Below, one piece after another: positions 6,110-16,873 of a stretch of 17,693 nt of DNA. The notes beneath the pieces are model-generated. The model made no database searches. It worked only from the letters and a program-made list of their open reading frames with translations, and was not told the origin of the DNA. Source of the stretch: Chloroflexota bacterium (GTDB lineage Bacteria; Chloroflexota; Anaerolineae; Promineifilales; Promineifilaceae); assembly GCA_020353135.1 (NCBI GenBank), contig CP070688.1, forward strand, positions 3,019,699-3,037,391. The letters are read 5' to 3'. The position numbers and the translations under genes were made by a program. The first letter of the stretch is position 1. Each line of letters begins with the position of its first letter.

Positions 6110-7765
6110 TTAGTTCAGCGGCACGTCACCGCACAGGTGAACGGTGATGCCCATCTCGGCCAGCATGGCCGCCTTAGCCGCCAGCGCCTTGTCGGCCGTC
6201 ACGGCGTCGTCCCCGTAAGCAACATTCAGGTGATTGGCTTTGTGCCGAGCCATCATTTGGTCGCGGCTGACTCCGTGCAGCACGGCGTGCATGATCGGCC
6301 ATTGAGGCGTGGTAGCCAACCAACGCCGCTGCGTTTCTTCCTGCGGCAGTGAAACCACTGTCGCCCGGCCGAGATCGGCGTGCAGGCGACTGTCCTGGAT
6401 ATAGACGCGACTCCACACTATCTCTCCCGGCTTGCTGATGCCTTTCAGCGTTCCGCCGCCCAGGTGGAAGTACATCGGCGGTTGGCGCTCGCTGTGTGCG
6501 CCGGCGTAGCCGCCGATGAAATGGGACGCCGGCGCTGCGCCAGAGATGAGGAAAACCCAGACGAAGTCATCTAGGCCTTGTCCCTGGTAGTATTCACCCC
6601 AACGCAAATCGTGCAATGTGGTGGCCGGATCGAGACCCATGGCCCGCCAGATACGGTTGGTCACCAGGGCATCCAGGCCTGCGCCCTCGTCGACCTCGTT
6701 GAAGTGTGGCAGCGCCTGCCCGGCATATAGCTCTTTGCCTCCATCCCAATCATATACAGGCGGTCGGTCGACGTTGTTGAGCAATCCCTCGGCCAGGTCT
6801 GATGCAGGTGCCATGTCTTTGAGACCCTGCTGGTACTGGATGCCGATCGCGTCACAACCGAATTCGGCCGCGATGCGCACGGCCGCGATATACATCTTGA
6901 GTTGCTGCTGTATCTGGCGATCAGTTAGTTCTGCCGCTTCGTCGGAGCCAGTAATGAAAGTCATGCCTCTTTTTGTCAACCATTCTCGCGCGGCAAGGGT
7001 CTCTTCATCCCCGACGCGCCGCATGGCCGCAACCAACGCCGACTGGCTAAGCCGCTCCTTGTATATCCCAGTTGGGTTCAACAGCTCATCGTCGATGATC
7101 GCGTTGTACATGCCCATGCAGCCTTCGTCGAAGACGCCAAGGATGGCCTTTTCGCGAGCCAACTGAGCTGCCAGAGCCTGGCCCAGTTCCGCTTCCGTGA
7201 CCGGTATCGCCCGCACGTCCAGGTCCCGGCAATGTGAGGTATCGTGATTTATCTTGCCTTGCTTCAGCCACTGGCGAATGCCACTCCGGAAGAAGTCGTC
7301 GTCGAAATCTTGGCTCCAGAGAGTACTATAGGCGACTCCAGCCTTGGTCAGGCAACCGTTCAGATTGAGCATGCCGACCAAGCCTGGCCATTGGCCGCTC
7401 CAATTGGCGATCGTCAGTATCGGTCCCCGGTGTGTGCGCAGGCCGGCCAGCACGTGGTGGCTGTACTGCCATACCGCCTCGGCCACCACCAGCCTGGCCT
7501 CAGGATCGATGCCCCTGAACACATCCATGCCCTGGCGCTGGCTGGCGATGAAGCCATGGCCGGCCGCGGCATCGTACGCATGGGCGCGCTGCAGTTGAAA
7601 ACCTTCCATGGCGAAGGCGACGGCCAGCTTATCTTCCATCGCCTTCTGGGCCGGCCAGCAGTTTTGATTGGCAGCCGGCCGCAGATCGCCGCTGGCGACC
7701 AGGATCACGTCTTTATCGCCCACAGCCTTAGCCTCTATTACTTCCGGTATACGATACCCTGTCAC
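6110..7765 (-). CDS. L-fucose isomerase-like protein
   Basis: 551 residues, resembling the L-fucose/L-arabinose isomerase superfamily. The N-terminus has ILVASGDLRPAANQNCWPAQ (21-40), then FDEGCMGMYN (212-221) and IGIQYQQGLKD (307-317). By eye alignment with E. coli FucI, E357 in FNEVDEG and D386 in LHDLR fall where the Mn2+ ligands E337 and D361 lie, and H512 in ANHLNVAYGD could match H528. This would fit a metal-dependent aldose-ketose isomerase in the cytoplasm. The true sugar is unknown, and no kinase, aldolase or sugar transporter lies nearby. Start is GTG with a good SD (AGGAG, nine bases upstream). The 3' end faces the ABC exporter gene with only 4 bp between the stop codons. A non-isomerase role within the superfamily is possible. 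Confidence 0.72.
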   Translation of the reverse strand: MTGYRIPEVIEAKAVGDKDVILVASGDLRPAANQNCWPAQKAMEDKLAVAFAMEGFQLQRAHAYDAAAGHGFIASQRQGMDVFRGIDPEARLVVAEAVWQYSHHVLAGLRTHRGPILTIANWSGQWPGLVGMLNLNGCLTKAGVAYSTLWSQDFDDDFFRSGIRQWLKQGKINHDTSHCRDLDVRAIPVTEAELGQALAAQLAREKAILGVFDEGCMGMYNAIIDDELLNPTGIYKERLSQSALVAAMRRVGDEETLAAREWLTKRGMTFITGSDEAAELTDRQIQQQLKMYIAAVRIAAEFGCDAIGIQYQQGLKDMAPASDLAEGLLNNVDRPPVYDWDGGKELYAGQALPHFNEVDEGAGLDALVTNRIWRAMGLDPATTLHDLRWGEYYQGQGLDDFVWVFLISGAAPASHFIGGYAGAHSERQPPMYFHLGGGTLKGISKPGEIVWSRVYIQDSRLHADLGRATVVSLPQEETQRRWLATTPQWPIMHAVLHGVSRDQMMARHKANHLNVAYGDDAVTADKALAAKAAMLAEMGITVHLCGDVPLN

Positions 7766-10198: not shown

Positions 10199-10996
10199 CT
10201 AGTAGCCGGGCGGCGGCGAAGCCGGACCGGCATATTCGATAGCGCTGAAAACTGCGCCTTGCGGATCTTGAGCTACTAGAAACTTGCCGATATCCCCGGC
10301 CGGAGTCTGCGGAACGAGTATATTGCCATCCAGCTCACCAATTTTGGCCACGGTTGCGTCGATGTCTTCCACCAAGAAATAGATCGACCAATTCGGCGGC
10401 ACGTTTTTCATCTGCTCGGTCATCTGCATCATGCCCGCCTGCATGCGGTCGTCAACCTTGGAGACCACATACCCGTTTTCGTCCACATCGTAGGTCCAGC
10501 CAAAGACCGCGCTATAGAAAGCTCGAGCGGCATCAATCGCCGGCGTATGCAGTTCATTCCAGGTCAGGGTGTTGGGAATATTGACCAGTTGGGCGCCGAT
10601 GTGAGTGCGAGGCTGCCATACGCCAAATGCCGCCCCTGTTGGATCCTGGATCATGGTCATGCGCCCGGCGTCCATGACGTCGAACGGCGGAAACATGATG
10701 CTAGCGCCTGCGTCGGCCGCCCTGGCAGCGACGCCGTCGACGTCGTCATGTTTGACATAGGAACTCCAAAATGGGGGTATGCCCTGCTCTTGCATCCCCG
10801 GATCCAGCGGGCCAAGTCCGGCCACATTGTAGCCCTCGAGCTGGGCCATTGAATAGACTGTACCTGAGTCGGTGGGAGTATCCTGAAATGACCAGCCGAA
10901 GAGGCCGCCATAGAAAGCCTTGGCCGCTTCAGGATCGGTTGTTCCAAGATCTACCCATGAGAATACACCATCAGGATAACCAGATACGACTTGCAT
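10199..10996 (-). CDS. Two-domain VOC (glyoxalase/bleomycin-resistance fold) protein, Cfp30B-like
   Basis: 265 residues from the chosen start, made of two homologous vicinal-oxygen-chelate modules (about 5-125 and 135-258). Each opens alike: FSWVDLGTTDPEAAKAFYGG against LTWNELHTPAIDAARAFYSA, both followed by FGW. Each closes with a Q-D-P-T/Q-G-A-x-F strand. The nearest relatives I recall are the CFP30B-type antigens of mycobacteria and streptomycete homologues annotated as hydrolases; the substrate is unknown. The start is the ATG at 10996, which has SD AAAGGAG eight bases upstream; a longer in-frame start at 11053 would put translation across the promoter's -10 box and is rejected. A promoter at 11052-11080 and a terminator at 10058-10097 make this a one-gene transcription unit. 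Confidence 0.87.
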   Translation of the reverse strand: MQVVSGYPDGVFSWVDLGTTDPEAAKAFYGGLFGWSFQDTPTDSGTVYSMAQLEGYNVAGLGPLDPGMQEQGIPPFWSSYVKHDDVDGVAARAADAGASIMFPPFDVMDAGRMTMIQDPTGAAFGVWQPRTHIGAQLVNIPNTLTWNELHTPAIDAARAFYSAVFGWTYDVDENGYVVSKVDDRMQAGMMQMTEQMKNVPPNWSIYFLVEDIDATVAKIGELDGNILVPQTPAGDIGKFLVAQDPQGAVFSAIEYAGPASPPPGY

Positions 10997-11051
10997 TTGT
11001 GATTCTCCTTTCTTAACTATGTGAGTACCAAATCGCCAGAAGCGAACCTGC

Positions 11052-11080
11052 ATTATAGCATGGCTAGAACAAATGGTCTA
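11052..11080 (-). promoter_or_regulatory. Sigma70-type promoter of the VOC gene
   Basis: On the minus strand, -35 TAGACC (11080-11075, four of six consensus bases), a 17-base spacer, and a perfect -10 TATAAT (11057-11052). Transcription would start near 11045, giving a leader of about 50 bases before the ATG at 10996. It overlaps the last codon of the upstream minus-strand ORF, so the VOC gene is expressed on its own. Confidence 0.65.
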
Positions 11081-11602: not shown

Positions 11603-12502
11603 ATGAGCATACACTCGGCGCCTAAATCCCCACGCAGATCATTGCTGTTCACGCCGGGTGACAGCTTTCGCAGGATGAAGAAGGCGGCCGGTCTGGGAGC
11701 GGATGTGGTGATTCTTGACCTTGAAGATGGTGTAGCCGTCAGCCAGAAGGAAGAAGCCCGGCAGAATGTAGCGACCGTCTTATCCGAAGTAGATTTCGGC
11801 CGGGTTGAGCGCTTCGTTCGAGTTAATCAGCCTGATAGCGACTTCTACGCGGCCGATTTGCAGGCCGTGGTTGAAATCGGAGTGGATGGCATCGTTCTCC
11901 CCAAGGTGGAATCGTCCCGGCAGCTTCAGCGCCTTGACCAGCGCTTGACCACAGCCGAGCGATCGGAAGGGTTGCCAGCCGGCGGGATTCGTCTCTTCGC
12001 GCTCATAGAGACGGCGCAAGGGGTCATGAACCTCAACGAAGTCAGTCGGAGCAGCGGACGACTGGACGGCTTGCTCTTCGGCGCGGAAGATCTGGCCGTC
12101 GACCTGGGGGCAAGTCGGTCCCCGGCCGGCTGGGAGGTATTCTACGGGCGCAGTGCTGTGCTCACGGCCGCCGCCGCATATGGTCTGGAGGCAATCGACA
12201 CCGTCTACGTGGATTACCGGAACACGGCCGGCCTTGAGGAAGACGCTTCCTTTGCCCAGCAGCTGGGCTACACGGGCAAGATGGCCATCCATCCCGGGCA
12301 GGTCGAAGTGCTGAACCGTGTCTTCTCCCCAAGTGCGGCCGAAATTGCCCGGGCCGAGAGATTGATCCAGGCGTTCCAGTCACATGTCGCCGCCGGATCC
12401 GGGGTGTTTGTTTTGGATGATCGCATGGTTGACATGCCACATGTGCGGGCGGCCGAACGTCTACTCGAAAGAGCCCGGTTGGCCGGACTAGCTGGCGAAT
12501 AA
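11603..12502 (+). CDS. CitE-like beta-hydroxyacyl-CoA lyase (HpcH/HpaI family), probable citramalyl-CoA lyase
   Basis: 299 residues, the usual length for stand-alone CitE/Mcl-type TIM-barrel lyases. Motifs in order: RSLLFTPGD (12-20), ILDLEDGV (37-44), R73 in RVN, LPKVE (99-103), LIETAQGV with E135, FGAEDLA with E162 and D163 (Mg2+ ligands in the family), and GYTGKMAIHPGQV (222-234). Members split beta-hydroxyacyl-CoAs such as malyl-, beta-methylmalyl- or citramalyl-CoA into an acyl-CoA and a 2-oxo acid. Stand-alone CitE proteins beside MaoC and CoA-transferase genes act in itaconate breakdown in Pseudomonas, Yersinia and Mycobacterium, so (S)-citramalyl-CoA to acetyl-CoA plus pyruvate is the favoured reaction (inference). 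It is the first gene of a six-gene operon; SD is weak. Confidence 0.9.
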   Translation: MSIHSAPKSPRRSLLFTPGDSFRRMKKAAGLGADVVILDLEDGVAVSQKEEARQNVATVLSEVDFGRVERFVRVNQPDSDFYAADLQAVVEIGVDGIVLPKVESSRQLQRLDQRLTTAERSEGLPAGGIRLFALIETAQGVMNLNEVSRSSGRLDGLLFGAEDLAVDLGASRSPAGWEVFYGRSAVLTAAAAYGLEAIDTVYVDYRNTAGLEEDASFAQQLGYTGKMAIHPGQVEVLNRVFSPSAAEIARAERLIQAFQSHVAAGSGVFVLDDRMVDMPHVRAAERLLERARLAGLAGE

Positions 12503-12555
12503 GGTGGCGCATCACTTGTTGGGTCGACTTCGCTAAGCAGCGTAATAGAGCAGGT

Positions 12556-13407
12556 ATGGGAAATCAAATGCTTCGCGAGATTCACGTCAGCGCTATTCAG
12601 AACGCCGTTCGAGAGATGATCGAAGAGTCGGCCTACTCGTTGCCGGACGACTACCTGGCAGCCATGGCCGAAGCCCAGGAGCGAGAACTGTCGGCCATCG
12701 GGCGGTCAATCATCCTCATGTTGCGTGACAATGCCGCCTATGCCAGCGCCGAGCGAGTTCCCACCTGCCAGGACACGGGCATGGCGATATTATGGTTGGA
12801 AGTAGGCCAAGACGTTCATTTTACCGGCGGGGATATCAATGTTGTATTGGAGTCGGCCGTGCGCGACGCGTATCGACCACTGCGCAAGTCGATCGTATCA
12901 GATCCCCTGACGCGAAGTAACACCGGCGACAATACGCCGCCCATTGTGCATTTCGAGCTGGTTCCCGGTAATCAGGTAAAGATCACGATCATGACGAAGG
13001 GTTTTGGCGCCGAAATGATGAGCCGGCTGCAGATGTTCGCTCCGTCGGTCGGATTGAACGGCGTCAAACAATTCGTCTTGGAAACGGTCGAAAAAGCCGG
13101 TCCAAACGCTTGCCCACCGGTGATCGTCGGCGTGGGCCTGGGCAGCTCTTTTGACGGTGTGGCCATGCTGGCCAAGAAGGCGCTATTACGCCCGCTGGAC
13201 CAACCTAACCCGTCGCCTCATCTTGCTCAGCTAGAAACCGAATGGATGGAGGCATTCAACGCCCTGGGCATTGGTCCGCAAGGCTTTGGCGGCGCCGTAA
13301 CTGCGCTGGCCGTCCATATCGAAAGCTATCCGACCCATATCGCCGCTATGCCGGTAGCTGTGAACCTTAATTGCTCCGCGCCGCGACGGGCGACGATCAC
13401 GCTCTAA
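12556..13407 (+). CDS. Class I fumarase-type hydro-lyase, alpha (Fe-S) subunit
   Basis: 283 residues, matching the N-terminal half of class I fumarases and the TtdA subunit of L-tartrate dehydratase. The three cysteines expected to hold the oxygen-sensitive 4Fe-4S cluster are visible: C71 in PTCQDTG, C186 in NACPPVIVG and C273 in LNCSAPRR. The family hydrates fumarate, or dehydrates malate, tartrate or citramalate; some members act on mesaconate. The operon context (CitE, CoA-transferase, MaoC) favours mesaconate/(S)-citramalate interconversion over a TCA role (inference). The ATG at 12568, giving MLREI, is an alternative start that fits the family's usual N-terminus better. The beta subunit follows after 6 bp. 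Confidence 0.88.
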   Translation: MGNQMLREIHVSAIQNAVREMIEESAYSLPDDYLAAMAEAQERELSAIGRSIILMLRDNAAYASAERVPTCQDTGMAILWLEVGQDVHFTGGDINVVLESAVRDAYRPLRKSIVSDPLTRSNTGDNTPPIVHFELVPGNQVKITIMTKGFGAEMMSRLQMFAPSVGLNGVKQFVLETVEKAGPNACPPVIVGVGLGSSFDGVAMLAKKALLRPLDQPNPSPHLAQLETEWMEAFNALGIGPQGFGGAVTALAVHIESYPTHIAAMPVAVNLNCSAPRRATITL

Positions 13408-13413
13408 ACGGTC

Positions 13414-13965
13414 ATGTCCGAAATCCGGGTTACACTTCCCCTCGACGAACCAACAGCTATATCCCTCAGGGCTGGCGACCTTGTACGGCTGAACGGCCTG
13501 CTCTATACCGCTCGCGACGCCGCCCATAAGCGACTTATAGCGGCATTAGAGCGCGGCGAAACATCTCCCATTCCTCATGTCGATCAGGTGATTTATTACG
13601 TGGGTCCGTCACCGGCGAAGGAGGGACAGGTGATCGGAGCGGCCGGTCCAACGACCAGCGGGCGGATGGATCCCTACACGCTTCCGCTATTGAAGTTGGG
13701 TGTGCGAGGATTCATTGGCAAAGGGTTTCGCTCGGCCGAAATAAAGGCGGCTCTGGTCGAACATCAGGCGGTATATCTGGCAGCCGTCGGCGGCGCGGCC
13801 GCGTTATTGGCCCGGCATGTCGTCCAGAATCGGATCGTCGCCTACCCCGGCTTGGGTCCAGAGGCGATCCGCGAATTGATAGTCGAGGAGTTTCCCGTCA
13901 TCGTGGTCAACGATTGCCACGGCGGAGACGCATACGAAGCCGGCCGGGCTCAATATGCCGCTTGA
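13414..13965 (+). CDS. Class I fumarase-type hydro-lyase, beta subunit
   Basis: 183 residues, matching the C-terminal half of class I fumarases and TtdB. Conserved stretches are TARDAAHKR (32-40), YYVGPSPA (61-68), IGAAGPTTSGRMDPYT (74-89) and IGKG (101-104). It completes the catalytic site together with the alpha subunit; the split into two chains is common in anaerobes and Chloroflexota-type bacteria. The ATG lies 6 bp after the alpha stop, so translation is probably coupled. Substrate is as for the alpha subunit: fumarate, or by context mesaconate/citramalate. Confidence 0.88.
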   Translation: MSEIRVTLPLDEPTAISLRAGDLVRLNGLLYTARDAAHKRLIAALERGETSPIPHVDQVIYYVGPSPAKEGQVIGAAGPTTSGRMDPYTLPLLKLGVRGFIGKGFRSAEIKAALVEHQAVYLAAVGGAAALLARHVVQNRIVAYPGLGPEAIRELIVEEFPVIVVNDCHGGDAYEAGRAQYAA

Positions 13966-13991
13966 ATCTGGCAAGCGCCCAAGGAGAGATG

Positions 13992-15152
13992 ATGGAAGGA
14001 TCACACGAGCTGCATGACGACTTGCGCCAAGGTATGCGCCAGCTGTGCGCACGCTACCCAGATGAGTATTGGCGGGAGTTGGACAAGAGTGAAGCTTATC
14101 CGGCCGAATTCGTCCAGGCAATGACGGCCGCCGGCTATCTGGCGGCGCTCATCCCTGAAGAGTACGGCGGCATTGGCGTTGGCGTGACCGAGGCCTCGAT
14201 CATCCTGGAAGAGATCCACCGTTCAGGGGGAAACGCTGCCGCCTGCCACGCTCAAATGTATATTATGGGCACCCTGCTGCGTCACGGATCGAGTGAACAG
14301 AAGCAGAACTTCCTGCCCAAGATCGCCAACGGCGAGCTGCGCCTGCAGGCCTTTGGCGTGTCAGAACCGGACGCCGGCACAGATACCACGCGCATTCGGA
14401 CCACGGCCATTCGGCAAGGCAATCACTACCGTATCCGCGGTCAGAAGATCTGGACCTCCAGGGCCCAATACTCCGATTTGATGGTCTTGCTGGCCCGCAC
14501 AACGCCTCTGGAACAGGTACAGAAAAAGACGCAGGGCTTATCTGTCTTCTTGATCGACCTGCGAGAGGCGATCGGTAATGGCGTCACCATCGAGCCAATT
14601 GAGGTCATGATCAACCACCATACGACGCAAGTCTACTTCGACGATTTACTGATACCGGCCGACGGCCTGATTGGCGAGGAAGGGCTGGGCTTTCGCTATA
14701 TTCTTGACGGTTTGAACGCCGAACGCATTTTGATCGCCGCCGAATGCATTGGCGACGGCTACTGGTTTGTCGACCGGGCCAAACAATACGCCAATGACCG
14801 CGTCGTCTTTGACCGGCCGATCGCGGAGAATCAGGGCATTCAGTTCCCAATTGCAGACGCCTATATCAAGGTTCGGGCGGCCGACCTGATGCGATTCGAA
14901 GCCGCGAGACTCTTCGACAGTGGACAACCATGCGGCGCAGAAGCCAACATGTCCAAGTTGCTCGCTGCTGAAGCCTCATGGAAAGCAGCCAACGTCACGA
15001 TGCAAACCTACGGCGGCTTCGGTTTCGCCAGGGAGTATGATGTGGAGCGCAAATTCCGCGAGACGCGCCTTTACCAGATCGCCCCCATCTCAACCAATCT
15101 TATCTTGTCCTATATCGGGCAGCACATCCTGAGCATGCCCCGTTCATTCTGA
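13992..15152 (+). CDS. Acyl-CoA dehydrogenase with helix-G catalytic glutamate
   Basis: 386 residues, full length for the acyl-CoA dehydrogenase family (FAD-dependent alpha,beta-dehydrogenation of an acyl-CoA). Visible are FGVSEPDAGTD (121-131), an FAD/substrate loop QKIWTSRA (151-158), and YGGFGFAREYDVERKFRETR (340-359). The usual catalytic-Glu position in the C-terminal E-G-T segment reads A-P-I-S-T, so that base is missing. Instead E244 in GLNAERILIA matches the alternative base used by isovaleryl- and long-chain enzymes. By context a methylsuccinyl-CoA or glutaryl-type substrate is possible (inference). Two ATGs stand in tandem; the second (13992) is chosen because SD AAGGAG is five bases upstream, against two for the first (13989). 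A further in-frame start at 13914 overlaps the beta subunit and has no SD. Confidence 0.88.
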   Translation: MEGSHELHDDLRQGMRQLCARYPDEYWRELDKSEAYPAEFVQAMTAAGYLAALIPEEYGGIGVGVTEASIILEEIHRSGGNAAACHAQMYIMGTLLRHGSSEQKQNFLPKIANGELRLQAFGVSEPDAGTDTTRIRTTAIRQGNHYRIRGQKIWTSRAQYSDLMVLLARTTPLEQVQKKTQGLSVFLIDLREAIGNGVTIEPIEVMINHHTTQVYFDDLLIPADGLIGEEGLGFRYILDGLNAERILIAAECIGDGYWFVDRAKQYANDRVVFDRPIAENQGIQFPIADAYIKVRAADLMRFEAARLFDSGQPCGAEANMSKLLAAEASWKAANVTMQTYGGFGFAREYDVERKFRETRLYQIAPISTNLILSYIGQHILSMPRSF

Positions 15153-15164
15153 GGTCGAGAGACG

Positions 15165-16340
15165 ATGTTGCCATTGGCTGGAATCACCGTTGTTTCGCTG
15201 GAGGTGGCCGTCGCCGCTCCTTTCGCTTCGCGCCAATTAGCCGATTTGGGAGCGCGGGTGATCAAAGTCGAGCGGCCGGGTGTTGGAGACTTCGCCAGAG
15301 GTTATGATCAGGAAGCCAGGGGCTTATCAAGTCACTTCGTCTGGACCAATCGAAGCAAAGAATCGCTAACGCTCAACCTTAAGACTGAAGCCGGCAAACA
15401 GATCCTAAAAAAGCTGCTAAAACGGGCCGATGTCTTTATACACAACCTTGGCCCTGGAGCGGTCGATAGGCTGGGATTCAGCGCTGAGCGCCTGGTCGCC
15501 GATAATCCACAGTTGATAAACTGCGCCATTTCAGGCTACGGTGCCAGCGGTCCGTATCGCGAAAAAAAAGCGTACGATCTACTCATTCAGGCCGAGGCGG
15601 GCTTCTTATCGCTCACCGGTACGCCTGAAACACCATCCAAGGCGGGCGTGTCCGTTGCCGACATCGCCGCCGGGATGTACGCCTACAGCGGCATCCTGAC
15701 CGCCCTCCTCACCCGCCACCAGACAGGTAGTGGGTCGACGATTGAAGTGTCGATGCTGGAGGCGCTTGGCGAATGGATGGGCTTCCCGCTTTATTACGCT
15801 CTTGGCGGCAAGTCGCCGCGCCGGCATGGCGCCAGCCATGCTTCAATCGCCCCCTATGGTCCGTTTGCCGCCGGCGATGGCGGATATGTCATCCTTGGCG
15901 TCCAAAACGAATATGAATGGCAGCGATTTTGCGAGACCGTTTTGCAGCGGCCGGCGCTAGCGAAAGATGAACGCTTCGCCGGCAATCCTCATCGCGTGGC
16001 CCATCGCCATGTTCTACAGGAGCTGATCGAGGACGTTTTTTGTCGATCAACGCGCAGTGAAATCATTTCCCGTCTGGAGCAAGCCGGCATCGCCAACGCC
16101 GAAATGCGGACGATGGAGATGTTTCTCGACCACCCACAGTTGGCGGCACGTGAAAGGTGGCGAGAGGTTTCGTCGCCTGCTGGAGATCTTCCGGCGCTTT
16201 TACCGCCGGCAACGATGTCCGGCGTGAAACCAGTATTCAAACCCATTCCGGCGCTGGGCGAACACACGGACGCGATCTTGACCGAACTTGGCTACGAAGA
16301 GGCGGACATAGCCCAGCTTCGAGCCGACCAGGTCTTGTGA
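15165..16340 (+). CDS. Class III CoA-transferase, CaiB/BaiF family
   Basis: 391 residues, the family's normal length. It opens with a G-I-T-V-V-S-L-E strand, then LADLGARVIKVERPG (25-39), a Rossmann-type start, NLGPGAVDRLG (94-104) and SGYGASGPY (123-131). D138 in KKAYDLLIQAEAG is the expected catalytic aspartate (D169 in formyl-CoA transferase) that forms the acyl-anhydride and aspartyl-CoA adducts. It moves CoA between two carboxylic acids in the cytoplasm. Family members activate itaconate, mesaconate or citramalate with succinyl-CoA; that is the favoured role here because CitE, MaoC and fumarase-type genes share the operon (inference). It begins 12 bp after the dehydrogenase stop. Confidence 0.9.
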   Translation: MLPLAGITVVSLEVAVAAPFASRQLADLGARVIKVERPGVGDFARGYDQEARGLSSHFVWTNRSKESLTLNLKTEAGKQILKKLLKRADVFIHNLGPGAVDRLGFSAERLVADNPQLINCAISGYGASGPYREKKAYDLLIQAEAGFLSLTGTPETPSKAGVSVADIAAGMYAYSGILTALLTRHQTGSGSTIEVSMLEALGEWMGFPLYYALGGKSPRRHGASHASIAPYGPFAAGDGGYVILGVQNEYEWQRFCETVLQRPALAKDERFAGNPHRVAHRHVLQELIEDVFCRSTRSEIISRLEQAGIANAEMRTMEMFLDHPQLAARERWREVSSPAGDLPALLPPATMSGVKPVFKPIPALGEHTDAILTELGYEEADIAQLRADQVL

Positions 16341-16366
16341 GCTAGAAGAAAAGGAGAGAAGTCACA

Positions 16367-16873
16367 ATGACGATGAAAGAAGGATGGAGCGGCCGTGTCT
16401 ATGAGGATTTTGAAGTCGGCGACGTTTATCAGCATCCTCTCGGCCGCACGGTAACGCAAACCGACAATATCTGGTTCACCCTTTTGACCGTGAATCCCAA
16501 CCCCATACATTTTGACGCCCACTATGCCTCCCAGACTTCCTTCGGAAGACCGCTGGTCGATTCCACCTTTACCCTGGCCCTGGTAACTGGGTTGTCGGTG
16601 AGCGATGTTTCGCAGAATGGAATCAATCTTGGCTGGGACGAGATCCAGCTGCCGGCACCGGTCTATGAAGGTGATACCATCTATGCCCAGAGCGAGGTAT
16701 TGCTCAAGCGGGAGTCGAAGTCCAATCCAGACCGGGGGATCATCCAGGTCAAGACCACTGGCTATAACCAAGAGGGAACTACGGTCCTCACCTTCAAAAG
16801 AAGTATCATGGTCTACAAACGGGGGCATGTGCCGCATATGCCCAGACCAAGTGTCAAAGCTCCCGACGAATGA
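16367..16873 (+). CDS. MaoC-type (R)-specific hydratase, single hot-dog domain, FkbR2-like clade
   Basis: 168 residues with one hot-dog fold. GRTVTQTDNIWF (26-37) and NPNPIHFD (43-50) mark the overhanging-loop region, followed by LVDSTFTLALVTGLSVSD. In canonical MaoC/hydratase 2 proteins this motif reads G-D-x-N-P-x-H with catalytic Asp and His. Here H48 is kept but the Asp position is N43, a feature I believe belongs to the FkbR2-like subgroup. It probably adds water to an enoyl-CoA, by context itaconyl-CoA or mesaconyl-CoA giving citramalyl-CoA (inference). It is the last gene of the operon, with a strong SD (AAGGAGAG, eight bases upstream of the ATG). Confidence 0.85.
   Translation: MTMKEGWSGRVYEDFEVGDVYQHPLGRTVTQTDNIWFTLLTVNPNPIHFDAHYASQTSFGRPLVDSTFTLALVTGLSVSDVSQNGINLGWDEIQLPAPVYEGDTIYAQSEVLLKRESKSNPDRGIIQVKTTGYNQEGTTVLTFKRSIMVYKRGHVPHMPRPSVKAPDE

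Follow-up and report, generated by a model that had tools for sequence, protein, structure and literature searches.

Six genes packed head to tail on one strand of a Chloroflexota genome (GTDB family Promineifilaceae; assembly GCA_020353135.1) raise the question of which acids they break down, and with which kinds of enzyme. They occupy positions 11603-16873 of a 17,693-nucleotide stretch (contig CP070688.1, 3,019,699 to 3,037,391), hereafter the window, whose own numbering is used throughout. A first-pass annotation of this stretch had proposed an operon with all steps of a route from branched C5 dicarboxylates to acetyl-CoA and pyruvate, an interpretation that our analysis partly supports. 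With a probability that we put at about 75%, the operon serves the catabolism of branched C5 dicarboxylates and is built as a mosaic of enzyme types. By sequence kinship it appears to combine a Pseudomonas-type transferase and dehydrogenase with a Yersinia/RipB-type hydratase, a lyase recruited locally and a two-chain class I fumarase encoded within the operon.

Gene content, gene order and the kinship of each protein were read directly from the window, and the protein families named before were confirmed by open reading frames (ORFs) and by Pfam and NCBIfam matches; the Pfam matches given here all lie above cut-off. The operon, entirely on the plus strand, opens with a CitE-type lyase (11603-12502, 299 amino acids (aa); HpcH_HpaI, 202 bits), a probable (S)-citramalyl-CoA lyase of a Chloroflexota lineage in the slot of Ccl. 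It continues with the alpha chain (FumA-type; 12556-13407, 283 aa; Fumerase, 344.5 bits) and beta chain (FumB-type; 13414-13965, 183 aa; Fumerase_C, 171 bits) of a class I fumarase/mesaconase and with an acyl-CoA dehydrogenase (ACD; 13992-15152, 386 aa; Acyl-CoA_dh_1, N and M), probably a (RS)-methylsuccinyl-C4-CoA dehydrogenase (Mcd). A class III CoA-transferase (CaiB; 15165-16340, 391 aa; CoA_transf_3, 365 bits), probably a succinyl-CoA:itaconate/(R)-methylsuccinate/(S)-citramalate CoA-transferase (Ict), and a RipB-type MaoC hydratase (16367-16873, 168 aa; MC_hydratase, 78 bits, and MaoC_dehydratas, 74 bits), probably acting on itaconyl-CoA and mesaconyl-C4-CoA, complete the set. For ACD the listed ORF reaches back to a TTG at 13914; we adopted the later ATG, which has AAGGAGAG before it. 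The gaps measure 53, 6, 26, 12 and 26 bp, so that the tight packing reported earlier stands and its range of 6-54 bp is corrected to 6-53 bp. The arrangement is real and not a product of chance, because five of the six genes occur in the same order in another phylum and ACD, CaiB and MaoC are found together in loci of several phyla.

In the proposed route, whose substrates and directions are predicted from kinship and context, Ict would activate itaconate, (R)-methylsuccinate or (S)-citramalate with succinyl-CoA as the CoA donor. Mcd would oxidise methylsuccinyl-C4-CoA to mesaconyl-C4-CoA, the hydratase would convert both itaconyl-CoA and mesaconyl-C4-CoA to (S)-citramalyl-CoA, and the lyase would split the latter into acetyl-CoA and pyruvate. 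FumAB, by turning free mesaconate into (S)-citramalate, would give mesaconate an entry. The claim that all steps are present fails for (S)-methylsuccinate, whose entry would require an isomerase; none was recognised in the window.

Kinship of the CoA-ester enzymes

As the Pseudomonas reference we used a Pseudomonas aeruginosa plasmid record (L183, NZ_CP131792.1, 707035-722198) that carries, in order, genes for a 275-aa hydratase of the MaoC-N type, an ACD, a VOC protein, an MmgE/PrpD protein, a CaiB, a CoA ester lyase and a TRAP transporter, and that we equate, from its gene order and annotated products, with the published PA0878-0886 cluster. The plasmid is typed as conjugative, with seemingly the whole itaconate/methylsuccinate cluster aboard. 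The window ACD is 63.7% identical to the cluster enzyme over 386 aa, and the window CaiB 61.6% identical to the cluster transferase over 388 aa. In phmmer searches ACD reached 582 bits with its P. aeruginosa counterpart against at most 206 with any solved ACD. CaiB reached 495 bits with the cluster transferase against at most 226 with any solved class III transferase; the first-pass annotation had allowed for a transferase that clusters with a family of another proven substrate, and the one found sides with the Pseudomonas enzyme. Quick maximum-likelihood trees, covering 72 of 99 ACD matches and 69 of 99 CaiB matches (odd lengths, identical rows and the short loci L078-L117 and L158-L166, many of which repeat longer loci, were left out), group the window protein with its P. 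aeruginosa counterpart, in a 43-row clade for ACD and a 31-row clade for CaiB, each with a support of 99 in the Shimodaira-Hasegawa-like approximate likelihood ratio test (SH-aLRT). The window CaiB is the sister of that of locus L002 (SH-aLRT 98). Glu348 in the C-terminal motif of ACD, which we take to be the catalytic base, is kept in both comparisons, and Asp166 in the ADIAAG motif of CaiB, presumably the catalytic aspartate, is conserved. CoA_transf_3 is the sole Pfam match of CaiB, which is not of the RipA type. The predicted route from branched C5 dicarboxylates to acetyl-CoA and pyruvate is well supported by this kinship of both enzymes to the P. aeruginosa cluster.

Since the proven Cupriavidus necator transferase is 60% identical to PA0882 (PMC12290011), the window CaiB is as close to the P. 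aeruginosa protein as a proven enzyme is. Among the transferase substrates suggested before, itaconate and methylsuccinate remain probable by this kinship, whereas mesaconate does not: Table 2 of the same paper gives the C. necator enzyme less than 0.1 units on mesaconate and contains no mesaconate value for the P. aeruginosa one. Direct activation of mesaconate by CaiB appears unlikely, and because the C. necator transferase does not take this acid, it probably enters through FumAB and (S)-citramalate.

The first-pass annotation missed that neither the hydratase nor the lyase is of the Pseudomonas type. At 1e-3, BLAST did not pair the window MaoC with the 275-aa MaoC-N type Ich of the cluster. 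It is 56.7% identical to the annotated RipB/Ich of Paraburkholderia caribensis (L171), which itself scores 356 bits on the RipB_Ich model and adjoins genes for a citrate-lyase-family protein and an acetyl-CoA hydrolase/transferase. Across the 274 genomes of the class to which G408 belongs (G408 carries a Lysobacteraceae locus), no RipB/Ich reference above cut-off was found, and plasmid records were used instead. By its similarities the window MaoC appears to be a RipB family member that lies outside the RipB/Ich equivalog. Among 154 aligned MaoC homologues, picked by similarity to the window protein and including repeats of the same locus, 152 carry an asparagine at a position that we take to be an aspartate in typical R-hydratases.

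The CitE lyase shares 38.0% identity over 284 aa with the P. aeruginosa cluster lyase. Its matches among solved structures are 5vxc, 'Citrate lyase subunit beta-like protein, mitochondrial' (187 bits), the malyl-CoA lyase 5ugr (160 bits) and 3qll (147 bits), the first of which is presumably the product of the gene named CLYBL. CLYBL has been called a citramalyl-CoA lyase (PMC11762313). In a tree that took in 58 of 74 matches the window lyase falls in an 11-row clade (SH-aLRT 98) whose other rows all come from Chloroflexota genomes. Because the cluster lyases of Pseudomonas, Bacillota and Thermus fall away from this clade, different CitE lineages appear to fill the lyase slot.

Set beside the P. 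aeruginosa and C. necator clusters (ich-mcd-mmgE-ict-ccl, with a TRAP transporter in P. aeruginosa), the operon is alike in its Mcd and Ict kin (62-64% identity), in having a CitE-family lyase and in pathway logic. It differs in its RipB-type hydratase in place of the MaoC-N protein, in a lyase of another CitE lineage and in the FumAB genes inside the operon. With the Yersinia-type ripABC genes, seen via P. caribensis and assigned by gene order, it shares the RipB-type hydratase (57%), but it has a class III transferase instead of an acetyl-CoA hydrolase/transferase, a lyase under the RipC_Ccl cut-off, and a dehydrogenase and FumAB in addition. A possible partial precedent for such mixed types is the itaconate region of Serratia entomophila, where RipB stands beside RipC and a 393-aa 'CoA transferase' (PMC9615192); the region is described as four genes, in a main text without the words fumarase, fumarate hydratase or acyl-CoA dehydrogenase. 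Clostridial glutamate-fermentation clusters likewise hold a two-chain class I FumAB within a C5 pathway cluster, but they differ in their glutamate mutase, methylaspartate ammonia-lyase and a citramalate lyase that acts on the free acid and not on CoA esters (PMC4682846). In the open-licence literature the gene set of the window is described in no title or abstract start among the matches listed, and an unremarked count is possible in PMC12290011, where differently organised clusters were counted in GTDB. The expectation of a little-described variant, very probably in Chloroflexota, was right.

Related loci in other genomes

A MaoC-anchored scan of GTDB species genomes returned 77 loci, 28 of which contain an Mcd- or Ict-type gene (ACD of at least 450 bits or CaiB of at least 430 bits), 17 of them both. 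The closest match in layout lies on plasmid pAA2-2c of Thermus thermophilus AA2-2 (LDO10_RS12660-12690), where FumA, FumB, ACD, CaiB and MaoC follow one another in the order of the window with identities of 66, 61, 67, 63 and 75%, respectively. This cluster differs in that its CoA ester lyase gene is divergent and the product 28% identical to the window lyase, and in the GntR regulator and TAXI TRAP transporter alongside. In Aneurinibacillus danicus (L022) a single strand encodes CaiB, CitE, GntR, DctPQM, PrpD, FumA, FumB, MaoC and ACD, and hence the whole set of six enzymes together with PrpD and a TRAP transporter, the DctP of which is 41% identical to the binding protein of the P. aeruginosa cluster. 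PrpD and FumAB occur together in two Aneurinibacillus clusters (L022 and L030), and PrpD/MmgE has been assigned as the isomerase of (S)- and (R)-methylsuccinate (PMC12290011); the earlier idea that FumAB takes the place of PrpD was therefore wrong in function.

In 400 genomes from the phylum of G002 we found a MaoC match (E 1e-35) in 117, a FumA match (1e-60) in 51 and a CitE match (1e-75) in 19. Forty Chloroflexota regions were picked by hand, 11 by FumA, 9 by CitE and 20 by MaoC, and 11 of the 20 MaoC-picked regions hold an ACD and/or a CaiB of the window type. The 5.7-kb Chloroflexota contig L122 combines ACD, CaiB and MaoC with divergent FumAB, and in L126, also from Chloroflexota, FumAB adjoins a more distant CaiB (362 bits). 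The window MaoC is 80% identical to that of L002. The relationships of FumA, ACD, MaoC, CaiB and CitE suggest that the organism carrying the window is close to the order of G002.

Several related loci carry further genes. In Chloroflexota and Rubrobacter, and hence outside Pseudomonadota, these genes are accompanied by genes for MmgE/PrpD proteins that share 62-66% identity with the isomerase of the P. aeruginosa cluster (L141, L152, L010:10528-11889 and L168:10507-11919). Genes for a zinc-dependent dehydrogenase and an aldehyde dehydrogenase follow or precede ACD/MaoC in Rubrobacter (L018, L021 and L168:9995-16072) and in L030. On the Deinococcus plasmids L170 and L177 the aldehyde dehydrogenase gene alone of these two lies beside ACD/MaoC, with genes for PrpD, two small thiamine-diphosphate subunits and PxpA. 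These additions suggest that methylsuccinate may derive from a branched semialdehyde or 2-oxoacid in the Rubrobacter, L030 and Deinococcus loci. In L023:14408-16562 and L024, SucCD-like ligase genes lie near a RipB-type MaoC, PrpD and TRAP, where the ligase perhaps replaces the CoA-transferase.

The two-chain fumarase and competing readings

FumA scores 360 bits on PRK06246, above the cut-off of 276. TIGR00722 is also above its cut-off, and FumB exceeds that of TIGR00723 (153 over 145 bits) but lies just under the cut-off of PRK06842 (228 against 238 bits). An L-tartrate dehydratase was rejected, the TtdA model giving 190 bits against a cut-off of 365. Cys71, Cys186 and Cys273 of FumA align with cysteines in the Thermus copy. 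Mesaconases have on several occasions evolved from class I fumarases, glutamate-fermentation clusters contain genes of the two-chain class I type as putative mesaconases, and the purified mesaconase of Clostridium tetanomorphum is a heterodimer (PMC4682846); class I fumarase is named as mesaconase in PMC12290011 as well. According to De Witt et al., Pseudomonas putida with the Pseudomonas cluster needs PP_0897 for growth on mesaconate; this mesaconase, which probably acts as a fumarase too, is encoded away from the cluster (PMC9875883). FumAB would supply within the operon the step that P. putida gets from PP_0897. Gene context inclines us towards a mesaconase, although this is the least sure step of the scheme.

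Counting FumA of at least 200 bits or FumB of at least 110 bits, FumAB is present in 6 of the 28 MaoC loci with an Mcd- or Ict-type gene and in 1 of the 49 without (Fisher p 0.008), a rough guide whose weight is lowered by non-independence, since three of the six loci are from Aneurinibacillus, L032 was counted by FumB alone and locus lengths vary. On the FumA tree, where a gene was scored as linked if a strong ACD, CaiB or MaoC lay no more than 15 kb away, L126 was scored as unlinked, and the unlinked rows are mostly hand-sampled Chloroflexota, the linked genes lie scattered, with a fewest number of state changes of 4 among 24 rows. Because of this scatter, the tree suggests that the two-chain class I fumarase was recruited repeatedly.

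Within the same C5 pathway, FumAB could instead be an ordinary fumarase that serves housekeeping or clears the fumarate formed from succinate released by the CoA-transferase. We regard this as unlikely, though by a margin that leaves it a serious contender: PRK06246, which FumA passes, is a 'fumarate hydratase' equivalog, the closest FumAB outside Thermus is unlinked to pathway genes in three related genomes, and FumAB of Aneurinibacillus sp. L029 comes after SdhC-SdhA and a 250-aa gene. Linkage to Mcd-, Ict- or RipB-type genes in the window, L122, Thermus, Rubrobacter and Bacillota speaks for a mesaconase, as does the presence of other fumarase candidates. Four Bacillota genomes with a cluster FumAB have a second, distant class I fumarase match in an open frame of 523-575 aa, in one of them on the same contig and about 10 kb from the cluster copy. 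Full-length matches to the fumC/aspartase family were found in all 11 genomes searched, two of them over the fumC cut-off, which is weak evidence because aspartases match this family too. Since class I fumarases can take mesaconate (PMC4682846), the roles of fumarase and mesaconase may overlap.

The other readings concern the pathway itself. A C1-ester route of the kind found in the ethylmalonyl-CoA pathway or the 3-hydroxypropionate bicycle, which yields propionyl-CoA and glyoxylate by way of mesaconyl-C1-CoA and methylmalyl-CoA, could draw on the match of MaoC to half of a two-domain mesaconyl-CoA hydratase (PF19315, 78 bits) and on the 160 bits of CitE with 5ugr, a malyl-CoA/beta-methylmalyl-CoA lyase. 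It is nevertheless very unlikely, as the 386-aa ACD is 64% identical to the P. aeruginosa cluster enzyme and C4 specificity has been demonstrated, the product having been identified in the case of the C. necator enzyme (PMC12290011). In addition, MaoC is a single RipB-like domain of 168 aa, and CaiB stays far below cut-off both on succinyl-CoA:mesaconate CoA-transferase (180 bits against 700) and on 2-methylfumaryl-CoA isomerase (53 against 725). The comparison with the Chloroflexus 3-hydroxypropionate genes (mct, meh, mch and mcl) proposed in the first-pass annotation led to the rejection of a Chloroflexus-like bicycle on family scores. About equally improbable is a different substrate acid, such as glutarate, oxalate, carnitine or an aromatic intermediate. 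The best NCBIfam match of CaiB is indeed succinate--glutarate CoA-transferase, and relatives of both CaiB and ACD are found in other gene neighbourhoods (L184 and L180), but the score of CaiB on that model, 270 bits, is far under the cut-off of 750, the model is also the best match of the P. aeruginosa cluster transferase (237 bits), and an enzyme set with a RipB-type hydratase and a CitE lyase fits none of these routes. Least probable is operation in reverse, from acetyl-CoA and pyruvate, as an anaplerotic or biosynthetic device. A citramalate cycle is known from purple bacteria and its lyase and mesaconase steps are called reversible (PMC8307300), whereas an FAD acyl-CoA dehydrogenase and a succinyl-CoA-dependent transferase indicate breakdown, and the kin of the operon adjoin dicarboxylate uptake systems.

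Several observations weigh against a catabolic C5 unit. The co-occurrence expected across genomes extends to five genes in order in Thermus and to all six enzymes in A. danicus, but the complete order of six genes was not seen outside the window, nor in any of the 40 Chloroflexota regions examined. Nine of the 20 MaoC-picked regions hold neither ACD nor CaiB of the window type. In three of the 56 genomes in the order of G002, FumA (64-65% identical, the closest FumAB outside Thermus) and ACD (77-80%) lie on different contigs with FumAB unlinked to pathway genes; these genomes gave no MaoC match at 1e-40, and their ACD contigs are without CaiB or MaoC. Among the Pfam-named neighbours of one FumA region and two ACD regions from these genomes none belongs to a C5 pathway; in the one FumA region the unlinked FumAB stands near an amidohydrolase, an NAD(P)H-hydrate dehydratase and an IDO-like protein. 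The split genes in this order and the nine regions without ACD or CaiB argue against a fixed unit. Clade membership of CaiB and ACD leaves gene context unfixed: a Rhodococcus CaiB (L184, 62% identical) falls within the 31-row clade, with CitE and FumAB genes absent from the listed annotation of its region, and a Pseudosulfitobacter ACD (68% identical) in the 43-row clade sits in an operon for a carboxylase, HMG-CoA (3-hydroxy-3-methylglutaryl-CoA) lyase, citryl-CoA lyase and MaoC-N protein. MaoC reaches 200 bits on RipB_Ich (NF038241), under the cut-off of 340, and CitE 210 bits on RipC_Ccl (NF038242), under the cut-off of 375, which the P. aeruginosa cluster lyase likewise fails (158 bits). 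The lyase lineage, distinct from the Pseudomonas Ccl, also adjoins other, more distant MaoC genes in several Chloroflexota. Finally, Pfam and BLAST labelling of the window ORFs recognised no transporter, regulator or PrpD adjoining the operon, and three PrpD queries, including the P. aeruginosa one, labelled no window ORF at E 1e-15.

If the operon is a catabolic C5 unit, it may exemplify a third, mosaic architecture outside Pseudomonadota, in Chloroflexota, Thermus, Rubrobacter and Bacillota, in which modules of two textbook variants are combined with any local CitE, and FumAB is recruited repeatedly and independently as a dedicated mesaconase, one operon thereby taking itaconate, mesaconate, citramalate and methylsuccinate. 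We consider the chances of this broader proposal to be evenly balanced. Methylsuccinate breakdown is documented mainly in Pseudomonadota, where 96.2% of methylsuccinate isomerases were placed (PMC12290011); uncultured Chloroflexota, a Thermus and several Gram-positive bacteria would become further consumers of these acids. Two pathway variants regarded as convergent would then have exchangeable modules, the mesaconate entry that P. putida encodes elsewhere (PMC9875883) would be a gene inside the cluster, and the thermophile copies would offer parts for upcycling branched dicarboxylates.

Surroundings of the operon

The genes around the operon are seemingly unrelated to it. Closest upstream are a 124-aa ORF without a Pfam family and a VOC protein on the minus strand (10199-11053), and downstream lies an ORF with a DUF3179 match. 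The VOC protein was rejected as a 2-hydroxyparaconate lactonase, as it has no BLAST match to the VOC protein of the P. aeruginosa cluster. A scan for promoters and terminators gave a site count no higher than in shuffles. Further away on the minus strand, a 551-aa protein (6110-7765) has weak matches to L-fucose isomerase that lie under the Pfam cut-offs, and a single long ORF open at the window edge (1-1860) reads by eye as a DsbA-like thioredoxin fold followed by an NhaA-type antiporter.

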